From Sulfuricurvum sp. (GTDB lineage: Bacteria > Campylobacterota > Campylobacteria > Campylobacterales > Sulfurimonadaceae), in assembly GCF_028710345.1 (NCBI RefSeq), contig NZ_JAQTUH010000001.1, positions 248,001-312,000 of the forward strand: a stretch of DNA of 64,000 nucleotides, written 5' to 3'. Positions 2,226 to 31,032 of the stretch are shown here, piece after piece. The position numbers and the translations under genes are program-made. The notes beneath the pieces are model-generated. The model was not told where the DNA came from. It worked only from the letters and a program-made list of their open reading frames with translations, and searched no databases. The stretch's first letter is position 1. Each line of letters starts with the position of its first letter.

Positions 2226-2945
2226 TTATTTTTGCCCAAAAGAAGCCAGCAATGCTTCGATATCATCACTGCTTACAACATTTTCAGTAGTAGTGTCTCC
2301 ATGAATATGAACGGCAGAACTTACCCGCTTAGCATCATCAATTTTACCGGAGAAGAGGTGATTCATATAGGTAGAGAGTGCGCGCATAACGTTAATAACC
2401 CTCTCAATTTTTTGGCGATGAATATCTTGGTATTGCATAATATCCATAATATTCATAATCGTATCACCACCATCTTGGAGAATTTGCATAATGGCATCGA
2501 GATGCTCTTTTGCCTCTTTGTTTTGGGTGAGTTGCTCACCAAATGCTTCTACGTGAGGAAATTTTGCATGAAGAGTTGTAAAGAGGGCAATATTAGAATC
2601 AATAATAGCTTTTGTTTTTTTAATAGACTTTTCACCATCCCCTAAATCGTTACTAATTCCTTCGATAAGATCAAAAATTTCAGAGGCTTTTTGCTCACTC
2701 TCTTTGGTAACGTCATCGAGTTGATGAACCATTTTATTATCATCAGTCGGTGGCGGTGGTGGCCAGCTGTGAAGTGCTGAAACACGGTAAGCCGCAGCTT
2801 CATCATTATTTTCTTCTTCCACATTATTAGTCTCTTCAGATTGTGTATCAAAATCTTCAGAATCATCCAACATCTCTTCGGTCTCATTAACCTCATTAAG
2901 ATCTAAATCTTCATTCATTAACGCATCAAGCTCTTCTTGTGTCAT
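2226..2945 (-). CDS. cheZ: CheZ-type CheY-P phosphatase
   Basis: Remote CheZ of the Helicobacter HP0170 / Campylobacter Cj0700 type; dephosphorylates CheY-P in chemotaxis. Seen: a long helical region with IMQYQDIHRQ at about 168-178, matching the CheZ catalytic QD..xxQ pattern (Asp174, Gln178), preceded by an acidic Pro-rich stretch. The N-terminus MTQEELDALM resembles the CheY-binding peptide of FliM. The last 15 residues SSDDIEALLASFGQK resemble the CheY-binding tail of E. coli CheZ. I chose ATG 2945 with GAGG upstream over a TTG six codons earlier. Its position beside glnA and the U32 gene supports the call. Confidence 0.88.
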   Translation of the reverse strand: MTQEELDALMNEDLDLNEVNETEEMLDDSEDFDTQSEETNNVEEENNDEAAAYRVSALHSWPPPPPTDDNKMVHQLDDVTKESEQKASEIFDLIEGISNDLGDGEKSIKKTKAIIDSNIALFTTLHAKFPHVEAFGEQLTQNKEAKEHLDAIMQILQDGGDTIMNIMDIMQYQDIHRQKIERVINVMRALSTYMNHLFSGKIDDAKRVSSAVHIHGDTTTENVVSSDDIEALLASFGQK

Positions 2946-2973
2946 AAGTGGTAACCTCGTCAAAAAATTGCAC

Positions 2974-2979
2974 TATAAT
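2974..2979 (+). promoter_or_regulatory. -10 box TATAAT for the PHP phosphatase gene
   Basis: A perfect TATAAT lies 34 bases before the ATG at 3014. The same short gap must also hold the divergent cheZ promoter, and a TATAGT can be read on the minus strand over almost the same bases, so the two promoters may overlap. Confidence 0.5.
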
Positions 2980-3013
2980 ATCATTAAAATGATTATTTTC
3001 AAGAAGGGAAATC

Positions 3014-3793
3014 ATGAAAGTTGATTTGCATAACCATACGACACTGTGCAACCATGCTACAGGGAGTGTAGATGAGTATGTAGAAGCGGCGATTGAATCG
3101 GGTACAGAGTATTTCGGATTTTCCGATCATGCTCCGATGAGGTATGATTTAGAGTATCGGATGAATTTCGATCAGATGGATTTGTATGAATCGTGGGTTC
3201 GTAATGCGAGCGAAAAATATCAAGAGAAAATTACAGTTCTCTTAGGGTATGAGGTAGATTATATTCCAGGTTACGTAGACGAGAGAGTATTAAATCGACC
3301 TTGCGATTATCTTATAGGGAGTGTCCATTTTATCGATGAATGGGGGTTTGATAATCCAGAGTACATTCACCGCTATCAGGGGATGGATATGGACGCGATC
3401 TATATCCGCTATTTTGATTTGGTAGAACAGATGGCTTTGAGTGGTCAGTTTGATATTGTCGGACATTTTGATTTACTGAAAGTCTTTAATTTTTTCCCGA
3501 AAAGCGATATACGGTTGTTGGCACAAAAAGCCCTCAAAGTGATTAAAAAAGCCGATATGGCAATAGAGCTTAATGTTGCGGGTCTTCGTAAACCGGTAGC
3601 AGAAGCCTACCCCTCTTCCTATCTACTTGAAGCGATTGCCGAACTCGAAATACCCATTACTTTTGGTTCCGATGCACACAGACCTGATCAAGTTGGGATG
3701 TTCAGTGGAGAAATCGAAACACTTGCAAAAAAATTTGGATACCGAGAATGTGCCACGTATCGCAACAGAGAACGGCAAATGATTAAATTTTAG
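3014..3793 (+). CDS. PHP-family histidinol-phosphatase (HisJ-like)
   Basis: Polymerase-and-histidinol-phosphatase (PHP) fold metal hydrolase of 259 residues, likely removing phosphate from L-histidinol phosphate. Seen: DLHNHTTLCNHA at 4-15 (metal-binding His pair), GFSDHAPM near 36-43, an E in LLGYEVDYI near 76-84, GSVHF at about 97, DIVGHFDLLK near 150-159 and FGSDAHRP near 219-226, covering the expected ligands. Length fits HisJ. SD AGAAGGGAAA precedes the ATG. The neighbours are not histidine genes, so the substrate is inferred from family only. Confidence 0.88.
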   Translation: MKVDLHNHTTLCNHATGSVDEYVEAAIESGTEYFGFSDHAPMRYDLEYRMNFDQMDLYESWVRNASEKYQEKITVLLGYEVDYIPGYVDERVLNRPCDYLIGSVHFIDEWGFDNPEYIHRYQGMDMDAIYIRYFDLVEQMALSGQFDIVGHFDLLKVFNFFPKSDIRLLAQKALKVIKKADMAIELNVAGLRKPVAEAYPSSYLLEAIAELEIPITFGSDAHRPDQVGMFSGEIETLAKKFGYRECATYRNRERQMIKF

Positions 3794-3827
3794 GCAATTT
3801 ACATTTTTACAATTAATATTAATTTGC

Positions 3828-3833
3828 TATACT
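3828..3833 (+). promoter_or_regulatory. glnA -10 box TATACT
   Basis: TTTGCTATACT, an extended -10 element, lies 31 bases upstream of the glnA ATG in an AT-rich gap. No clear NtrC or sigma-54 (GG-N10-GC) site was seen, so housekeeping transcription is the simplest reading. Confidence 0.55.
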
Positions 3834-3864
3834 GTTTACAATTTTATTTTTTGAGGTGAAATGT

Positions 3865-5295
3865 ATGGGTAAATTTGTAAATAACGTAGAAGAGTTCTTT
3901 ACATTTTGTAAAGAAAATGATGTTCAATTTGTAGATTTTAGATTTACAGACATTAAAGGTGCATGGCATCATGTTTCATACAGAATGAGTGCGGTTAATG
4001 CGGGTCATTTTGAGGGTGGTTTACCATTTGACGGTTCTTCCATCGATGCATGGCAACCAATTAATAAATCAGATATGTTGCTTATCCCTGATGCTGGTTC
4101 GGCGTTTATGGATCCTTTTACTGCTGATCCAACCGTTATTGTTTTCTGTGACGTTTATGATATTTATAAAAAACAACCATATGAGAGATGTCCACGTTCA
4201 ATTGCAAAAGCAGCACTTAAACACGCTGAATCTTTAGGTATTGCCGATGCTGCTTACTTCGGTCCTGAAAATGAATTCTTTATGTTCGATTCCGTCACTT
4301 TCATTGATAATATCAATGAAGCAGGTTATAAAGTTGATACGGAAGAGGGTGGCTGGAATTCAAATAACCCATATCCTGATGGTTTCAACTCAGGTCACAG
4401 ACCTGGGACAAAAGGTGGTTACTTTCCAGCAGCACCAACCGATTCTGGAGTAGATATCCGTGCTGAAATGATGCAAGTGATGGAGCAAGTTGGTCTTGAA
4501 GTAGTTCTTGGTCACCACGAAGTTGCTCAAGGTCAACATGAAATCGGTGTTGTATTCTCAGACATCATCGGTGCAGCGGATAACGTTCAAAAATACAAAT
4601 ACGTTGTAAAAATGGTTGCTCACCTTAATGGTAAAACTGCTACATTTATGCCTAAACCAATGTTTGGTGACAACGGTAACGGTATGCACGTTCACCAATC
4701 ACTATGGAAAGAGGGTAAGAACCTTTTCTATAAAGAGGGTAACTACGCTAATATCTCTGAAATGGGTCTTAACTATGTTGGCGGTATCTTTAAACATGCT
4801 CGCGCGGTTGCTGCATTTACAAATCCAACAACGAACTCATACAAACGTTTGCTCCCAGGATTTGAAGCACCAAGCGTTCTAACATACTCTTCTCAAAACC
4901 GCTCAGCTAGCTGCCGTATTCCATACGGTGCAGGCGAAAAAGCGACTCGTATTGAGATGCGTTTCCCTGACTCTACTGCTTGTCCATACCTTGCATTTGC
5001 AACGATGATGATGGCGGGACTTGATGGTATCATCAATAAAGAGATTCCAATCGGTCCAATGGATGAAGATTTATATGAACTCTCTTTGGACGAAATCCGT
5101 GAAAAAGGTATTCCTCAAATGCCTCACACGCTTCGTGGTTCACTCGAAGCACTTATCCGTGATAATGATTTCTTGAAACCGGTATTTACCGATGAGTTCT
5201 TGGAAGCATACCGACATTACCGCTTTGAGCGTGATGTATGGCCAGATGAAGGTCGTCCAACAGCTTACGAGTTTAAAACTACCTATTCTTGCTAA
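3865..5295 (+). CDS. glnA: Glutamine synthetase, type I
   Basis: ATP-dependent ligation of ammonia to glutamate; cytosolic dodecamer. The 476-residue protein shows the N-terminal beta-grasp ([13 protein letters not shown]), [11 protein letters not shown], the GPENEFF metal ligand region, [12 protein letters not shown], the [13 protein letters not shown] loop and [21 protein letters not shown] near residue 410 contains a Tyr at the place of the adenylylation Tyr397 of E. coli GlnA, so adenylylation control is possible if a GlnE exists elsewhere. ATG 3865 is chosen because GAGGTG sits 6 bases before it; the in-frame GTG at 3856 is part of that SD. Confidence 0.98.
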
Positions 5296-25888: not shown

Positions 25889-26902
25889 ATGGGAACTATT
25901 AAATTGAGCCGTGAGGCATTAGAACATAATATTGACATTATCGCACATCAAGTCGGTGGAAAAGATAAAATTGCGGTGGTTTTAAAAGATAATGCCTATG
26001 GGCATGGGGCAATTATGATTGCTGAAGCGGTATCGAATTACGGCATAAATCAAGCGGTAGTGCGGTTGGAGCGTGAAGCAGATGAGATTAGTGAATTTTT
26101 CGAAAATATCCTTATTTTAGGGGACCAGCCACACACTCCAAAAGCCAATTTTAGCTACGTTATCAATTCTCTTGAAGAGATAGAGCATTTTCCAAAAGGG
26201 TGTCGAGTTGAGCTGAAACTCGATACAGGGATGCACCGTAACGGTGTGGCACTTGGGGAGATTGAAGAGGCTTTTTTGCAAATGAGCGAGAGAGGTTTAA
26301 ACTGTATCGGTGTAATGAGCCATTTACGAGCTTCGGATACTCTGAGCAGTGAATGGTTTTGGCAACGACGAAATTTTGATGATGTAAAAGATAAAGTATT
26401 AAAATTGGGAGAAAAATATGGGTGGAAACTCCGTTTTCACCTCTCCAATTCGGGGGGGATATTCCGCTCTTCTAGCTGTAGTGATGATATGGTACGTGCC
26501 GGTATTGCCCTTTATGGATGTTTGGAAATGGAGAGAACCCTTCCACAACCTAATCTTAAGAGCGTCCTTTCATTGTGGGGTAATCGAGTAGCTACACGTA
26601 TCCTCAAAAAAGGGGAGAGGGTTGGTTATAACGGTATTTACGAGGCATTAGAGGATGAGGTAGTATCGACCTATGATTTGGGGTATGCTAACGGTTTAGA
26701 TCGTTTGGCATCGAATCGATATAGCACTCCTGAGGGGATTGCGTTGCGAGGGCGTATTTCGATGGATAATGCAATTTTTTCGAGCGATAAAGATGAATTG
26801 CTTATTTTTGACAATGCCAACGATTATGCTAAAGTGGTCGGTACTATCGGGTATGAGATATTGGCGTGTTTGGATAAAGATTTAAAGAGGGAATGGATTT
26901 AG
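25889..26902 (+). CDS. alr: Alanine racemase
   Basis: PLP enzyme making D-alanine for peptidoglycan. Seen: VVLKDNAYGHG with the PLP lysine near residue 34, ELKLDTGMHRNG, FHLSNSGGIFRS, RAGIALYG, GYNGIYEA and the partner-subunit region GRISMDNA. 337 residues from ATG 25889, somewhat shorter than the 360-380 of many Alr proteins but usual for this phylum. An in-frame TTG at 25871 is upstream of the -10 box and so less likely. Its stop overlaps the convergent small gene by 4 bases. Confidence 0.94.
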   Translation: MGTIKLSREALEHNIDIIAHQVGGKDKIAVVLKDNAYGHGAIMIAEAVSNYGINQAVVRLEREADEISEFFENILILGDQPHTPKANFSYVINSLEEIEHFPKGCRVELKLDTGMHRNGVALGEIEEAFLQMSERGLNCIGVMSHLRASDTLSSEWFWQRRNFDDVKDKVLKLGEKYGWKLRFHLSNSGGIFRSSSCSDDMVRAGIALYGCLEMERTLPQPNLKSVLSLWGNRVATRILKKGERVGYNGIYEALEDEVVSTYDLGYANGLDRLASNRYSTPEGIALRGRISMDNAIFSSDKDELLIFDNANDYAKVVGTIGYEILACLDKDLKREWI

Positions 26903-27291
26903 GTCGTTATTTTTACAAGTGCATCCCCAAATATTGCTCCATCGAGGCGCATTTCGATGAGAGTTTCTAAATCGTCCATCTCTTCACAATATCCGAGTAT
27001 TTTCGCATCAAAAAGATAGTGTTCGGCAATACGCTGAATCTCAGAACCATTTTTTGTGGTGACAATTAGGTAGGTGGCACCTAAATTTTCTCCTAATACT
27101 GCTTCTAATTCTGAACTGATATAGAGTGCAAAACGGATTTTATTATCACGTAGGTGGGTAATAATATCGATATTTTGCTCTTCAAAGAGAAGGGCAATGA
27201 TAGAGTTTGAAGGGGTTTTGAGTATTGCATCGATAGAGCTGATATGGTAAAACTGCTCTGAGGGGATGAGTGGATGACCAAACAATATCAT
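26899..27291 (-). CDS. Conserved hypothetical protein
   Basis: 130 residues from ATG 27291 (MILFGHPLIPSEQFYHI). The ATG overlaps the TGA of the upstream PP0621-type gene, so the two are coupled. The sequence looks cytosolic and alpha/beta, with a pattern of short strands (NSIIALLF, IRFALYIS, TYLIVTT) ending in a helix and DGAIFGDALV. I recognise no catalytic motif. It may bind a nucleotide or act as a partner of its neighbours. Gene order beside rsmG is shared with relatives as I recall. Confidence 0.8.
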   Translation of the reverse strand: MILFGHPLIPSEQFYHISSIDAILKTPSNSIIALLFEEQNIDIITHLRDNKIRFALYISSELEAVLGENLGATYLIVTTKNGSEIQRIAEHYLFDAKILGYCEEMDDLETLIEMRLDGAIFGDALVKITT

Positions 27292-27503
27292 GAAGCATCC
27301 TTGAGACATTCGACTGAACAGTAACATTTTCCGCTACGCATTAATGCCTCCTTGGTTTGAACATAAGTCCCACATTGTGTACAGGGTATCATCGCTTCAT
27401 CTGTGGAAGCGTCATTTTTTGGTGAGGATATAGATTTTGTTTTTGCAAAAAACATATAATAGACGGTAGTAATAAGGGCAATAAAAAGTAAAAATTTCAA
27501 CAT
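27288..27503 (-). CDS. PP0621-family small zinc-binding membrane protein
   Basis: 71 residues: one N-terminal membrane segment (MLKFLLFIALITTVYYMFF) and a C-terminal MIPCTQCGTYV...CYCSVECL with a treble-clef-like cysteine pattern (CxxC and CxCxxxC). This matches the small PP0621 family; function unknown. It starts 3 bases after the rsmG stop and ends in the start of the next gene. The soluble part would face the cytosol or periplasm depending on signal processing, which the sequence does not settle. Confidence 0.82.
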   Translation of the reverse strand: MLKFLLFIALITTVYYMFFAKTKSISSPKNDASTDEAMIPCTQCGTYVQTKEALMRSGKCYCSVECLKDAS

Positions 27504-27506
27504 AAT

Positions 27507-28067
27507 TTACGACTCGATTAAAAGATAGTGACGATTCTGTTTTTCGATGATTTTATAGTTTAACGACTCATCCACTTCATCATACACCTTTTCCCCTTTG
27601 TAAAAAAGTAAAAGAGTTCCGGTAGTCCGAAACGGCTCAGAGAGTTTTAAAAGCATTTTGGTGTCGGTTACGGCACGTGAAGTGATAAAATCGTAAGGCT
27701 CATGAGGGAGGTTCTCGACGCGCAAGGCTTTTACATCAACGTTTTTAAGCCCCAAATTTGCTTTGACAAATTGGAGAAAGCTAGCACGTTTTGAAAGGGG
27801 TTCGACAAGGGTAAAATGGGTTTGAGGCAATGCAAGCGCTAAAATCATCCCTGGAAATCCGGCACCGGAACCTATATCCATCGCTTTGGTAATAGGAGGT
27901 AAAAAAGTGATTGGTTGAACCGCATCGATAATAAATTCATCGATTTGGGCAGAAGTTTTAGCACCGGTGAGATTGTGTACTTTATTCCATTGCAGTAGTA
28001 GCTCTCTGTAGCGGAGAACTTGCGGTAAAAAAGTTTCTACTACCGAAATATTTTGAGAAGAAAGCAT
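27507..28067 (-). CDS. rsmG: 16S rRNA (guanine527-N7)-methyltransferase
   Basis: SAM-dependent methylation of G527 in 16S rRNA. 186 residues from ATG 28067. Seen: LLLQWNKVHNLTGAK at the N-terminus, the SAM motif MDIGSGAGFPGMILA, LVEPLSKRASFLQ and FITSRAVTD. A TTG at 28085 could add six residues; neither start has a clear SD. Loss of RsmG is a known route to low-level streptomycin resistance. It heads a three-gene run with the PP0621-type gene and a hypothetical. Confidence 0.95.
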   Translation of the reverse strand: MLSSQNISVVETFLPQVLRYRELLLQWNKVHNLTGAKTSAQIDEFIIDAVQPITFLPPITKAMDIGSGAGFPGMILALALPQTHFTLVEPLSKRASFLQFVKANLGLKNVDVKALRVENLPHEPYDFITSRAVTDTKMLLKLSEPFRTTGTLLLFYKGEKVYDEVDESLNYKIIEKQNRHYLLIES

Positions 28068-28083
28068 GTTAGCAAGTGTGCTC

Positions 28084-28119
28084 AAAAAAAACCGTCCCGT
28101 ATTGTATAAATTAGACGGT
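28084..28119 (-). terminator. Terminator of the hybrid kinase gene
   Basis: Minus strand: ACCGTC and GACGGT pair across a 17-base loop, followed by a run of seven or eight T. The stem begins in the last codons of the kinase gene and the T-run ends at the rsmG start region. Confidence 0.5.
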
Positions 28120-30300
28120 TATTGTATCTAAAGTTTCTTTAGGGGAGGCGAATGGTGTAATCGGCTTTTTAATCTGATTTCTTGATTTTTCAAATGCGTG
28201 ATAGAGGGTGGTATAAAAAACATTAACGTCAATAGGTTTGGCTATGTGCCCATTCATACCGGCTTGCGAAATTTTTTCAATTTCACCTTCTAGTGTATTG
28301 CCGGTAATAGCAATAATGGGTATGAAATCTTTTTCAGGTTCTTTTCGGATAATTTGCGCCGCTTCATATCCATCCATAATCGGCATTTGAATATCCATTA
28401 ATATAACGCAAATATCAGGGTTCATTTCCACAATTTCAACTGCCTCTTTTCCTGTTTTTGCGGTGATAATATTGATAGATGTACCTGAGAGTAAGCCAGA
28501 GATAATAGAACGGTTGATCTCATTGTCTTCCGCGAGTAGTAAGGAACGACCTGCGAAACGTTTTAATCCCTCTTTGAGTTTTTTGGTATTATCAAGATGT
28601 TTTTCTTCATTGGTCGCATACCCGTATACTGATAAAATAATTTTAAATAAGGCTTGTTGATTATACGGCTTTTGGAGGACAAATTCGCGCTGTTTTTTAG
28701 TATCTTCTCCGATCCATACGAGTTTAAGGGTATCATTTTTAATTTGCTCTTGTAGCTCTTTTTTTATGACTGGATTTAGGGTTATTTTAGAATCAAGAAA
28801 GAGAATATCAATAGAATAATATTTCATGGACGCTAATAGTTCACTCGCATCAGGGAGTGTTTTGACTTCATAATGGTAGTATTCCAGCCCACGCTGAAGA
28901 ACAGAAATATTATCAGGATTAGGATCAACTATCAGGGCATTTTTGTTCATCAAATCGGTGCTTGGAAGGCGATAGCGTCGTTTCTCATACTCAAAATCAG
29001 AATGAAGTTTGATGTCAAATGAGAAAGTGCTCCCTTTTCCAAGGATGCTGTGAACGTAAATACTTCCCCCCATGAGTGATACAAGATTTTTACAAATGGA
29101 GAGCCCTAGTCCACTGCCACCATATTTTCGTGAGATTGTATCATCGGCTTGGGTATAAGGGGTAAATAAATTTTTTACCTCATGCTCATCAATACCAATA
29201 CCGGTATCAATAACCTCAAAATTAATTTTTAGATTGACACGTGAGATTTGTTGTCCCCGTGCACGCAAGATGACTGAGCCTTGTTCGGTAAATTTAACGG
29301 CATTATTGAGTAAATTTACCAGTACTTGTAATAGTCTTAATGGATCACCAATCAGTTTATGAGGGACACTTTGATCAATATCAAAAATGACTTCAATCCC
29401 TTTTTCTTGCGCTTTATGAGCAACAATATTAGATATATCATCGAGGAGTGTATTGAGATCAAAAGGTATTTGCTCAATACTGACTTTGCCCGCTTCAATT
29501 TTAGAGTGATCCAAAATATCATTAATAAGACTAAGTAGTACATGTGCTGAGTCTTTGAGTTTGGTAATTTGGGTTCGTTGCGTTACTGTAAGACGTGATT
29601 CTAAAACTAGATGACTTATGCCGGTGATTGCATTGATAGGGGCGCGAACTTCATGACTCATCATAGCGATAAAATCATTTTTAGCTTGGATTGATTGTTG
29701 TAATGCCTCTTTTTTCTCACGAAGTTGTGTATATTCACTCTGAAGATGCCGAAATGTTTTTTCTCTCCAACCAATCCATCCGGCCCCTAGGCTAACTATA
29801 CTTCCCAATAAGATCCAAATAGATAGGGGAATCGTTGTTGAATGTCCGTGGGAAACAGCAGGAATTTTTTCAGGGGTAAGGGTTGATGCGATAGTCAAAG
29901 CAGCAGGATGGTTTTTGTTGGATGGTTGAACTTTAGTAGGCTGCTGTGTAAGTTCTTTGTTATGCTGTGCCAATAAAAAGAGGTAGTCATCCGCTACGCC
30001 ACGACTAACGGTTGCTTTGGGATGGTTTTTATGAACTGTTTGGAGGAAAAGCTCGGCATCTTCCCGTTTGTTAAAAGGTTCAGCAGCAATAATGTACCCA
30101 TCACCAGATTTTCGATATTGAATAATAAACTCTTTGGTATGGGCGTATTGTGAGACAGCACTGGTGGGATTATTTTGATAAGTTTCATATGCTTGTCGTG
30201 CGTCACGTTTAGAATTAAAACGTTCTAAAACAACTTTGTAGTTGTCGCTTAGAGCGAAAAGAGAGAAAGAAAAAGTAAAAAGTATTAATAGTAAACGCAT
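28111..30300 (-). CDS. Hybrid sensor histidine kinase with SPOR-like periplasmic domain
   Basis: 729 residues. Signal/anchor at 1-17; periplasmic region 20-155 whose first 80 residues (YKVVLERFNSKRDARQ ... GYIIAAEPFNKREDAE ... HPKATV) follow the beta-alpha-beta-beta-alpha-beta pattern of SPOR domains; membrane segment about 158-178; coiled coil; HisKA with His216 in MMSHEVRAP; HATPase (NLLNNAVKF, GTGIG, GSGLGLSI). Then a weak receiver-like domain (LIVDPNPDN, LFLDS) and a true receiver (LLLAEDNEINR, VILMDIQMP, AITGN, AKPID). No response regulator is adjacent. SPOR domains bind stripped glycan strands, so a cell-wall signal is inferred. Confidence 0.85.
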   Translation of the reverse strand: MRLLLILFTFSFSLFALSDNYKVVLERFNSKRDARQAYETYQNNPTSAVSQYAHTKEFIIQYRKSGDGYIIAAEPFNKREDAELFLQTVHKNHPKATVSRGVADDYLFLLAQHNKELTQQPTKVQPSNKNHPAALTIASTLTPEKIPAVSHGHSTTIPLSIWILLGSIVSLGAGWIGWREKTFRHLQSEYTQLREKKEALQQSIQAKNDFIAMMSHEVRAPINAITGISHLVLESRLTVTQRTQITKLKDSAHVLLSLINDILDHSKIEAGKVSIEQIPFDLNTLLDDISNIVAHKAQEKGIEVIFDIDQSVPHKLIGDPLRLLQVLVNLLNNAVKFTEQGSVILRARGQQISRVNLKINFEVIDTGIGIDEHEVKNLFTPYTQADDTISRKYGGSGLGLSICKNLVSLMGGSIYVHSILGKGSTFSFDIKLHSDFEYEKRRYRLPSTDLMNKNALIVDPNPDNISVLQRGLEYYHYEVKTLPDASELLASMKYYSIDILFLDSKITLNPVIKKELQEQIKNDTLKLVWIGEDTKKQREFVLQKPYNQQALFKIILSVYGYATNEEKHLDNTKKLKEGLKRFAGRSLLLAEDNEINRSIISGLLSGTSINIITAKTGKEAVEIVEMNPDICVILMDIQMPIMDGYEAAQIIRKEPEKDFIPIIAITGNTLEGEIEKISQAGMNGHIAKPIDVNVFYTTLYHAFEKSRNQIKKPITPFASPKETLDTITV

Positions 30301-30369: not shown

Positions 30370-30957
30370 CTAGATGATATGTCCCATACACTCTTTTTTG
30401 GTTCTAAGATATCCTTCATTATAAGGGTTCGGGTCAATAACAACAGGGATTCGCTCTACAATCTCGACATCCAAATCTTCGACTACGAGAACTTTCGCGG
30501 GATTATTGGTCAGAAGACGAATTTTTTTGAGTCCGAAATCGTTAAATACTTCCCGTACAACATCGTAAGTACGTTGATCGGGTGCAAAACCAAGTTCTAC
30601 ATTAGCCTCTATGGTATTACGTCCTAGATCTTGCAATGCATAGGCATTGAGCTTGTTCAATAAACCGATATTTCGCCCCTCTTGAGCATGATAAATAATC
30701 AATCCTCCTTGATCAGCAATCAGCTTGAGTGCTTTATGAAGTTGATTATTGCAGTCGCATTTAATACTGCCGAAAGTGTCTCCTGTTAAACATTGTGAAT
30801 GGATACGGACAAGGGGGGCTTCTACAGTGTTAAAATTTTCTGTAAAGATAGCTAGATGTTCTTGACATCCTTCTTTATAGGCACGTATTTTAAAGTGACC
30901 GTATTTGCTAGGGAGGTTGGCAATGGATGATTTTTCAAAGGTTATGTGATTCTTCAT
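30370..30957 (-). CDS. ribA: GTP cyclohydrolase II
   Basis: First step of riboflavin synthesis: GTP to diaminopyrimidine, formate and pyrophosphate. 195 residues from ATG 30957. Seen: zinc site CLTGDTFGSIKCDC (about 80-93), YHAQEGRNIGL with catalytic residues, and RLLTNNPAKV. Stand-alone, without the RibB half that many bacteria fuse to it. A longer frame upstream (24 codons) has no good start signal and runs into the hemB promoter region. It is divergent from hemB. Confidence 0.95.
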   Translation of the reverse strand: MKNHITFEKSSIANLPSKYGHFKIRAYKEGCQEHLAIFTENFNTVEAPLVRIHSQCLTGDTFGSIKCDCNNQLHKALKLIADQGGLIIYHAQEGRNIGLLNKLNAYALQDLGRNTIEANVELGFAPDQRTYDVVREVFNDFGLKKIRLLTNNPAKVLVVEDLDVEIVERIPVVIDPNPYNEGYLRTKKECMGHII

Positions 30958-31032
30958 GTGGAAATTATAATTCGCTTTTCTTAATCTAACACGCGCTACA
31001 CTTGCATAACATTTTATTTTGGAGCACATTTT

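Follow-up and report, generated by a model that had tools for sequence, protein, structure and literature searches.

The open reading frame at positions 28111-30300 (minus strand) of the window, the 64,000-nucleotide stretch of Sulfuricurvum sp. DNA which was analysed, encodes a hybrid histidine kinase whose periplasmic sensor, residues 19-101, is a SPOR domain as judged by predicted fold and homology. In this sensor the SPOR fold appears to be kept while the known binding face is changed, according to residue comparisons and structural modelling. Within Sulfuricurvum, gains and losses of the kinase coincide with those of a second protein, which consists of a SPOR domain, a transmembrane (TM) segment and a helical tail.

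Architecture of the kinase and identity of its sensor domain

The reading frame is a real gene: it begins with ATG, a Shine-Dalgarno-like sequence (TGAGGAAATT) which is a plausible ribosome site lies upstream, and the predicted protein of 729 residues has 11 orthologs in the genus, which share 54-65% identity and were aligned over nearly their full length. Pfam matches were obtained for HisKA (residues 206-271), HATPase_c (318-432) and Response_reg (twice), along with a sub-threshold SPOR match (19-98). From the N-terminus, with all features on the minus strand, the protein is predicted to comprise a signal peptide or N-terminal anchor (residues 1-18; 30247-30300; hydropathy segment at 1-19, with putative cleavage), the divergent SPOR domain (29998-30246), a periplasmic linker of approximately 55 residues rich in Pro, Thr, Ser and Gln (102-156; 29833-29997; composition and alignment), a single TM segment (about 157-178; 29767-29832; hydropathy segment at 155-177) and a charged helical linker into the kinase (181-206; 29683-29760; inferred from sequence). 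The flexible linker and the one TM segment were found in all orthologs by alignment and hydropathy.

The cytoplasmic domains were assigned with Pfam and alignments. The HisKA domain (29488-29685) carries the phospho-acceptor His216, invariant in 15 aligned kinases, and is followed by an HATPase_c domain (29005-29349) with the N box and both G boxes. It had been predicted that a degenerate receiver precedes a true one; the order held, as did the second receiver (residues 587-695; 28216-28542), in which the acidic residues, Asp, Thr and Lys are all kept, but the first (about residues 453-550; 28651-28944) is degenerate only in part, as the family retains Asp503 and Lys544 but has another residue in place of the Thr/Ser (WIGED) and varies at the first acidic pair. 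The NCBIfam BarA model matched the core through both receivers, including the degenerate one (E 8.9e-123), with an equivalog score of 411 bits, below the cut-off of 890. The protein is classed from its sequence as a hybrid of the BarA/GacS type, with a HisKA-HATPase-receiver-receiver core and intact catalytic motifs. No HAMP domain was found in the window kinase, and an HPt domain was absent from it and from all 10 aligned genus orthologs; two relatives in other genera (L063 and L075) do have an HPt domain.

For the sensor, 50 related N-terminal domains (the sensor family) were gathered from genomes of the same family. The SPOR match in the window spans the whole Pfam model (PF05036) and scored 17.7 bits with the N-terminus and 20.5 bits with the domain alone, under the curated cut-off of 21, and the domain is therefore termed divergent SPOR-like. 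SPOR was matched by 40 of the 50 relatives at E<=1 (best 1.2e-6), no other family recurred among their Pfam matches, and some members passed the cut-off, one TolC-like relative reaching 25.4 bits. In hhalign the family profile was aligned over its full length with 32 canonical Campylobacterota SPOR domains (96.7%, E 3.9e-10 in one comparison), with an insertion between a1 and b2 in the sensor family. A sequence-profile search of the PDB gave no SPOR match, the best hit being at chance level (E 0.07), so the link to SPOR rests on Pfam, profile-profile and fold comparison.

The AlphaFold2 model of the domain, with the family alignment as input, had a pLDDT of 91.3 and a pTM of 0.83. Its strands (4-11, 42-48, 51-59 and 80-83, domain numbering) and helices (14-26 and 62-72) follow the strand-helix-strand-strand-helix-strand order which had been recognised by eye, with a short additional helix between a1 and b2. 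The top Foldseek match in the PDB was the CwlC SPOR domain (E 2.2e-3). After structural re-alignment, five of the top seven entries were SPOR domains, with RlpA at Z 7.5 (2.7 A over 72 residues) and 7.4 (with and without glycan), CwlC at 6.8, DamX at 6.1 and DedD at 5.6; these Z-scores are middling by themselves, and other ferredoxin-like folds ranked behind at Z 4-5.7. The first match was an uncharacterised exported protein (6ozd, Z 7.9), and MzrA was also among the matches (Z 5.2). The original prediction of a SPOR-like periplasmic sensor was thus borne out by Pfam, the hhalign profile and the predicted fold, with glycan-binding SPOR domains, and not an unrelated fold, among the best matches.

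The glycan-contact face of the sensor

RlpA holds glycan via Q270, R302, R309, R311 and backbone atoms, the last of these making most of the contacts, and the residues that form a basic patch differ from one SPOR domain to the next (PMC6895207). The RlpA contact positions were mapped onto the sensor family through the profile alignment, and the SPOR-domain residues considered were K22, V24, R63, S65, G66, I70, A72, E74 and P75. At the Q270 position Gln was found in 32/32 canonical Campylobacterota domains, with VQVGSF and VQIGAF as examples from the canonical SPOR proteins that the present genome encodes, vs 0/50 members of the sensor family (25 Val, 21 Ile, 4 Arg), and at the R309 position in beta-3 Lys/Arg was found in 31/32 vs 0/50 (41 Ile). 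V24, I70 and A72 stand where the canonical face has Gln, Arg and Arg. The register of R302, R311 and R63, counted back from the EPF/GPF turn and RlpA numbering, is less certain than that of Q270 and R309; on this register R63 occupies the R302 position and is Arg in 44/50. K22 is kept in 41/50, Glu is found in 45/50 at E74 (a position which ends the contact-bearing strand and is Gly in canonical SPOR domains), P75 is invariant, and an RxSG and an EP motif are conserved. The mean net charge is +1.3 in the sensor family vs +7.0 in canonical SPOR domains. Four kinases of one other genus, close relatives which represent a single evolutionary event, have the charges swapped, with Glu at R63 and Lys at E74, which suggests a salt bridge between these residues and a pairing of R63 inside the protein.

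As the Gln and the beta-3 Lys/Arg are lost, it is doubtful from these alignments that peptide-free glycan is bound in the known manner, and the earlier proposal that the domain binds such glycan and reads wall turnover is unsupported as stated. The domain could still bind the wall, because the RlpA contacts are mostly to the backbone and basic patches vary between SPOR domains. It is unlikely, in our estimate, that it does so like FtsN or RlpA, with the kinase reporting septal wall turnover directly: the shared fold and the possibility that K22 and R63 make a substitute basic patch are in its favour, but both signature contacts are missing from every member, the charge is low, Glu replaces Gly at the end of the contact strand and R63 may already be paired within the protein.

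Distribution of the kinase, its candidate partners and the SPOR-like module

Pfam searches and locus comparison identified ribA (GTP cyclohydrolase II; 30370-31029, minus strand) as the constant upstream neighbour and rsmG (gidB; 27507-28085, minus strand) as the constant downstream neighbour. The gene order was hemB-ribA-kinase-rsmG wherever the flanks of the kinase could be inspected, and in kinase-less genomes ribA and rsmG were adjacent or overlapping. Genus-wide, a conserved 142-amino-acid protein without a Pfam family (26899-27327, minus strand, in the window) was found between rsmG and an alanine-racemase-like gene. A decayed remnant of the kinase was located between ribA and rsmG in one genome of 1.5 Mb (G092; L229, 1048-1470), where a fragment of the SPOR domain (E 4e-17) and a stretch like the kinase C-terminus survive without the core, which shows that in this lineage the kinase was lost, not gained.

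At the thresholds used, 12 of 41 genus genomes had both the kinase and the SPOR-TM-helical-tail protein, 28 had neither and one (G124) had the tail protein only; a profile search of eight kinase-less genomes returned no sensor-family member at E<=1e-4. The presence or absence of the two proteins agreed in 29 of the 30 genomes placed on a tree, and in 20000 simulated runs of independent evolution the number of agreements never reached 29 (maximum 27). About seven changes were counted for the kinase and about six for the tail protein, counts which are approximate as the tree genes adjoin the kinase locus and several nodes are weak (support 36-54). Part of the correlation could also stem from genome reduction in which both genes were lost.

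The tail gene lies behind an EAL-HDOD gene, whose end it overlaps by approximately 4 bases, and in most genomes proA comes next. The kinase-linked EAL-HDOD ortholog (at least 60% identity) was found only in kinase-bearing genomes (11 of 12), while the TM-receiver protein encoded upstream of the EAL-HDOD and tail genes was found also in genomes without the kinase. In L058 (3776-9846) two TM-receiver proteins, whose C-terminal part is HPt-like without the phospho-His, are followed by DNA polymerase IV, EAL-HDOD, the SPOR-TM-helical-tail protein and then proA. The tail domain was predicted with confidence to be a helical bundle (AlphaFold2, pLDDT 91.6); it had no recurrent Pfam match, and its structural matches in the PDB (FliS and HPt-type bundles, Z about 7) are not diagnostic. 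A phosphotransfer role for the tail was rejected, as no His is conserved in 12 aligned tails.

The present genome also encodes a SPOR-TM-HPt protein (HPt match, E 2.2e-8), with a gene for a receiver-GGDEF protein (c-di-GMP synthase) next to it. In L020 the SPOR-TM-HPt gene (3657-4817) lies directly before receiver-GGDEF (2776-3660), and the same pair was seen in L022, from another genome. As only 2 of the 41 genus genomes have this pair, it cannot be the general output of the kinase.

Across the phylum, 37 of 397 drawn genomes gave profile matches (E<=1e-4), with canonical SPOR proteins appearing among the weakest. Almost all carriers of the SPOR-like domain are proteins of the envelope or a membrane. 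The carriers comprise hybrid kinases, some with HPt and others lacking it, SPOR-TM-HPt proteins, SPOR-TM-receiver proteins (with an HPt-like C-terminal part lacking the His, and of which a SPOR-less version also exists), a GspD-like secretin, TolC-like outer-membrane proteins and an ankyrin protein, with tandem copies also found. The secretin (L069, 1566-3740) has the domain at its N-terminus, as do two TolC-like efflux proteins (L088, 1429-3246, and L090, 1-1827), one of them over the Pfam cut-off, and in L094 (1078-2325) tandem SPOR-like domains are followed by one TM segment. A search with the full kinase gave three full-length matches (one Sulfuricurvum and two Campylobacterales MAGs); the remaining matches, 77 other hybrid kinases, covered the kinase part only and none had a SPOR domain. 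Most likely, the sensor belongs to a set of SPOR-like modules that is specific to Campylobacterota and reused in envelope and signalling proteins there; a type of domain familiar from cell division seems to have been put to use in signalling. Somewhat short of an even chance is given to the broader idea that SPOR is a general sensor or anchor module of Campylobacterota signalling, whose altered face binds a new ligand or a matching SPOR partner and so wires together the kinase, an HPt relay and c-di-GMP proteins.

The same findings bear on a protein-protein sensor, in which the V24/I70/A72 sheet face would be an interface and the kinase would sense the SPOR-TM-tail protein, or itself as a dimer, with no glycan contact. 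The hydrophobic residues at the contact positions and the tight co-occurrence of the two proteins are consistent with this, but co-occurrence is no demonstration of contact and the TolC-like and secretin carriers suggest an envelope-anchoring role; we consider it improbable.

Proposed mode of action and comparison with known systems

Our preferred explanation, to which we assign an even chance of being right, is that of an orphan BarA/GacS-type kinase with a divergent SPOR sensor, which is tethered or held in position by the cell wall or a SPOR partner bound to it. It builds on architecture, fold, homology, residue changes and co-occurrence, which were observed or computed, and from these we infer the tethering, ligand, partner contact, phosphotransfer and output. 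The SPOR domain would serve as a tether or localiser at the end of its flexible linker, ahead of the one TM helix; tethering or localisation is favoured because a rigid signal is unlikely to pass through 55 flexible residues, although the sensor may be of a conformational, ligand type despite the long linker. The docking site of the domain would be either the cell wall itself, which is not a given as the contact residues are lost family-wide, or another SPOR protein attached to the wall. In Sulfuricurvum the partner would most likely be the SPOR-TM-helical-tail protein encoded behind the EAL-HDOD gene, to which the presence of this protein without the kinase in G124 is a counterpoint. Docking would place or cluster the kinase and thereby alter autophosphorylation at His216 and passage of the phosphoryl group to the C-terminal receiver. 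As the genus kinase lacks an HPt domain, onward transfer would need a separate HPt protein, and in the present genome the candidate is the SPOR-TM-HPt protein encoded before receiver-GGDEF, through which a relay could lead to c-di-GMP.

It is very improbable that this is an ordinary hybrid kinase with a generic ferredoxin-like periplasmic domain merely resembling SPOR, as could be read from the sub-cut-off score and the Z-scores of 6-8, since SPOR domains dominate the structural, profile and family-wide Pfam matches.

No SPOR-sensor kinase was described in the open-licence papers searched, most of which were judged on title, abstract and term counts. A kinase family built on the SPOR fold would connect two-component signalling with cell-wall state or position in a direct and testable way; the changed face makes a sharp prediction as to whether the fold has acquired a new ligand, and the co-gained SPOR-TM-tail protein supplies a concrete pair with the kinase.

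The SPOR-TM-tail protein resembles the polar landmark proteins FimV/HubP, whose general layout is described in PMC12918733, in the order of a wall-type periplasmic domain, a TM segment, an acidic cytoplasmic stretch and a small C-terminal helical domain; it differs in having a SPOR-like domain where they have LysM, and its sequence gave no link to FimV. The window kinase is highly similar to BarA/GacS kinases in its HisKA, HATPase, degenerate receiver and receiver and matches them in the order of these parts, but it has a SPOR sensor in place of the BarA periplasmic domain and, like its Sulfuricurvum orthologs and in contrast to some relatives in other genera, no HPt. Finally, the sensor has in common with the SPOR domains of RlpA, DamX, DedD, FtsN and CwlC the fold, the strand order, a profile alignment over the full length, a GPF-like turn after beta-3 (EPF in the sensor) and an aromatic residue at the F274 position (F/Y in 42/50). 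It departs from them in the missing contact residues, the a1-b2 insertion with its short helix, the RxSG and EP motifs, the near-neutral charge and the N-terminal position on a kinase; for SPOR proteins of known function, the roles described are in division or morphogenesis (PMC6895207).
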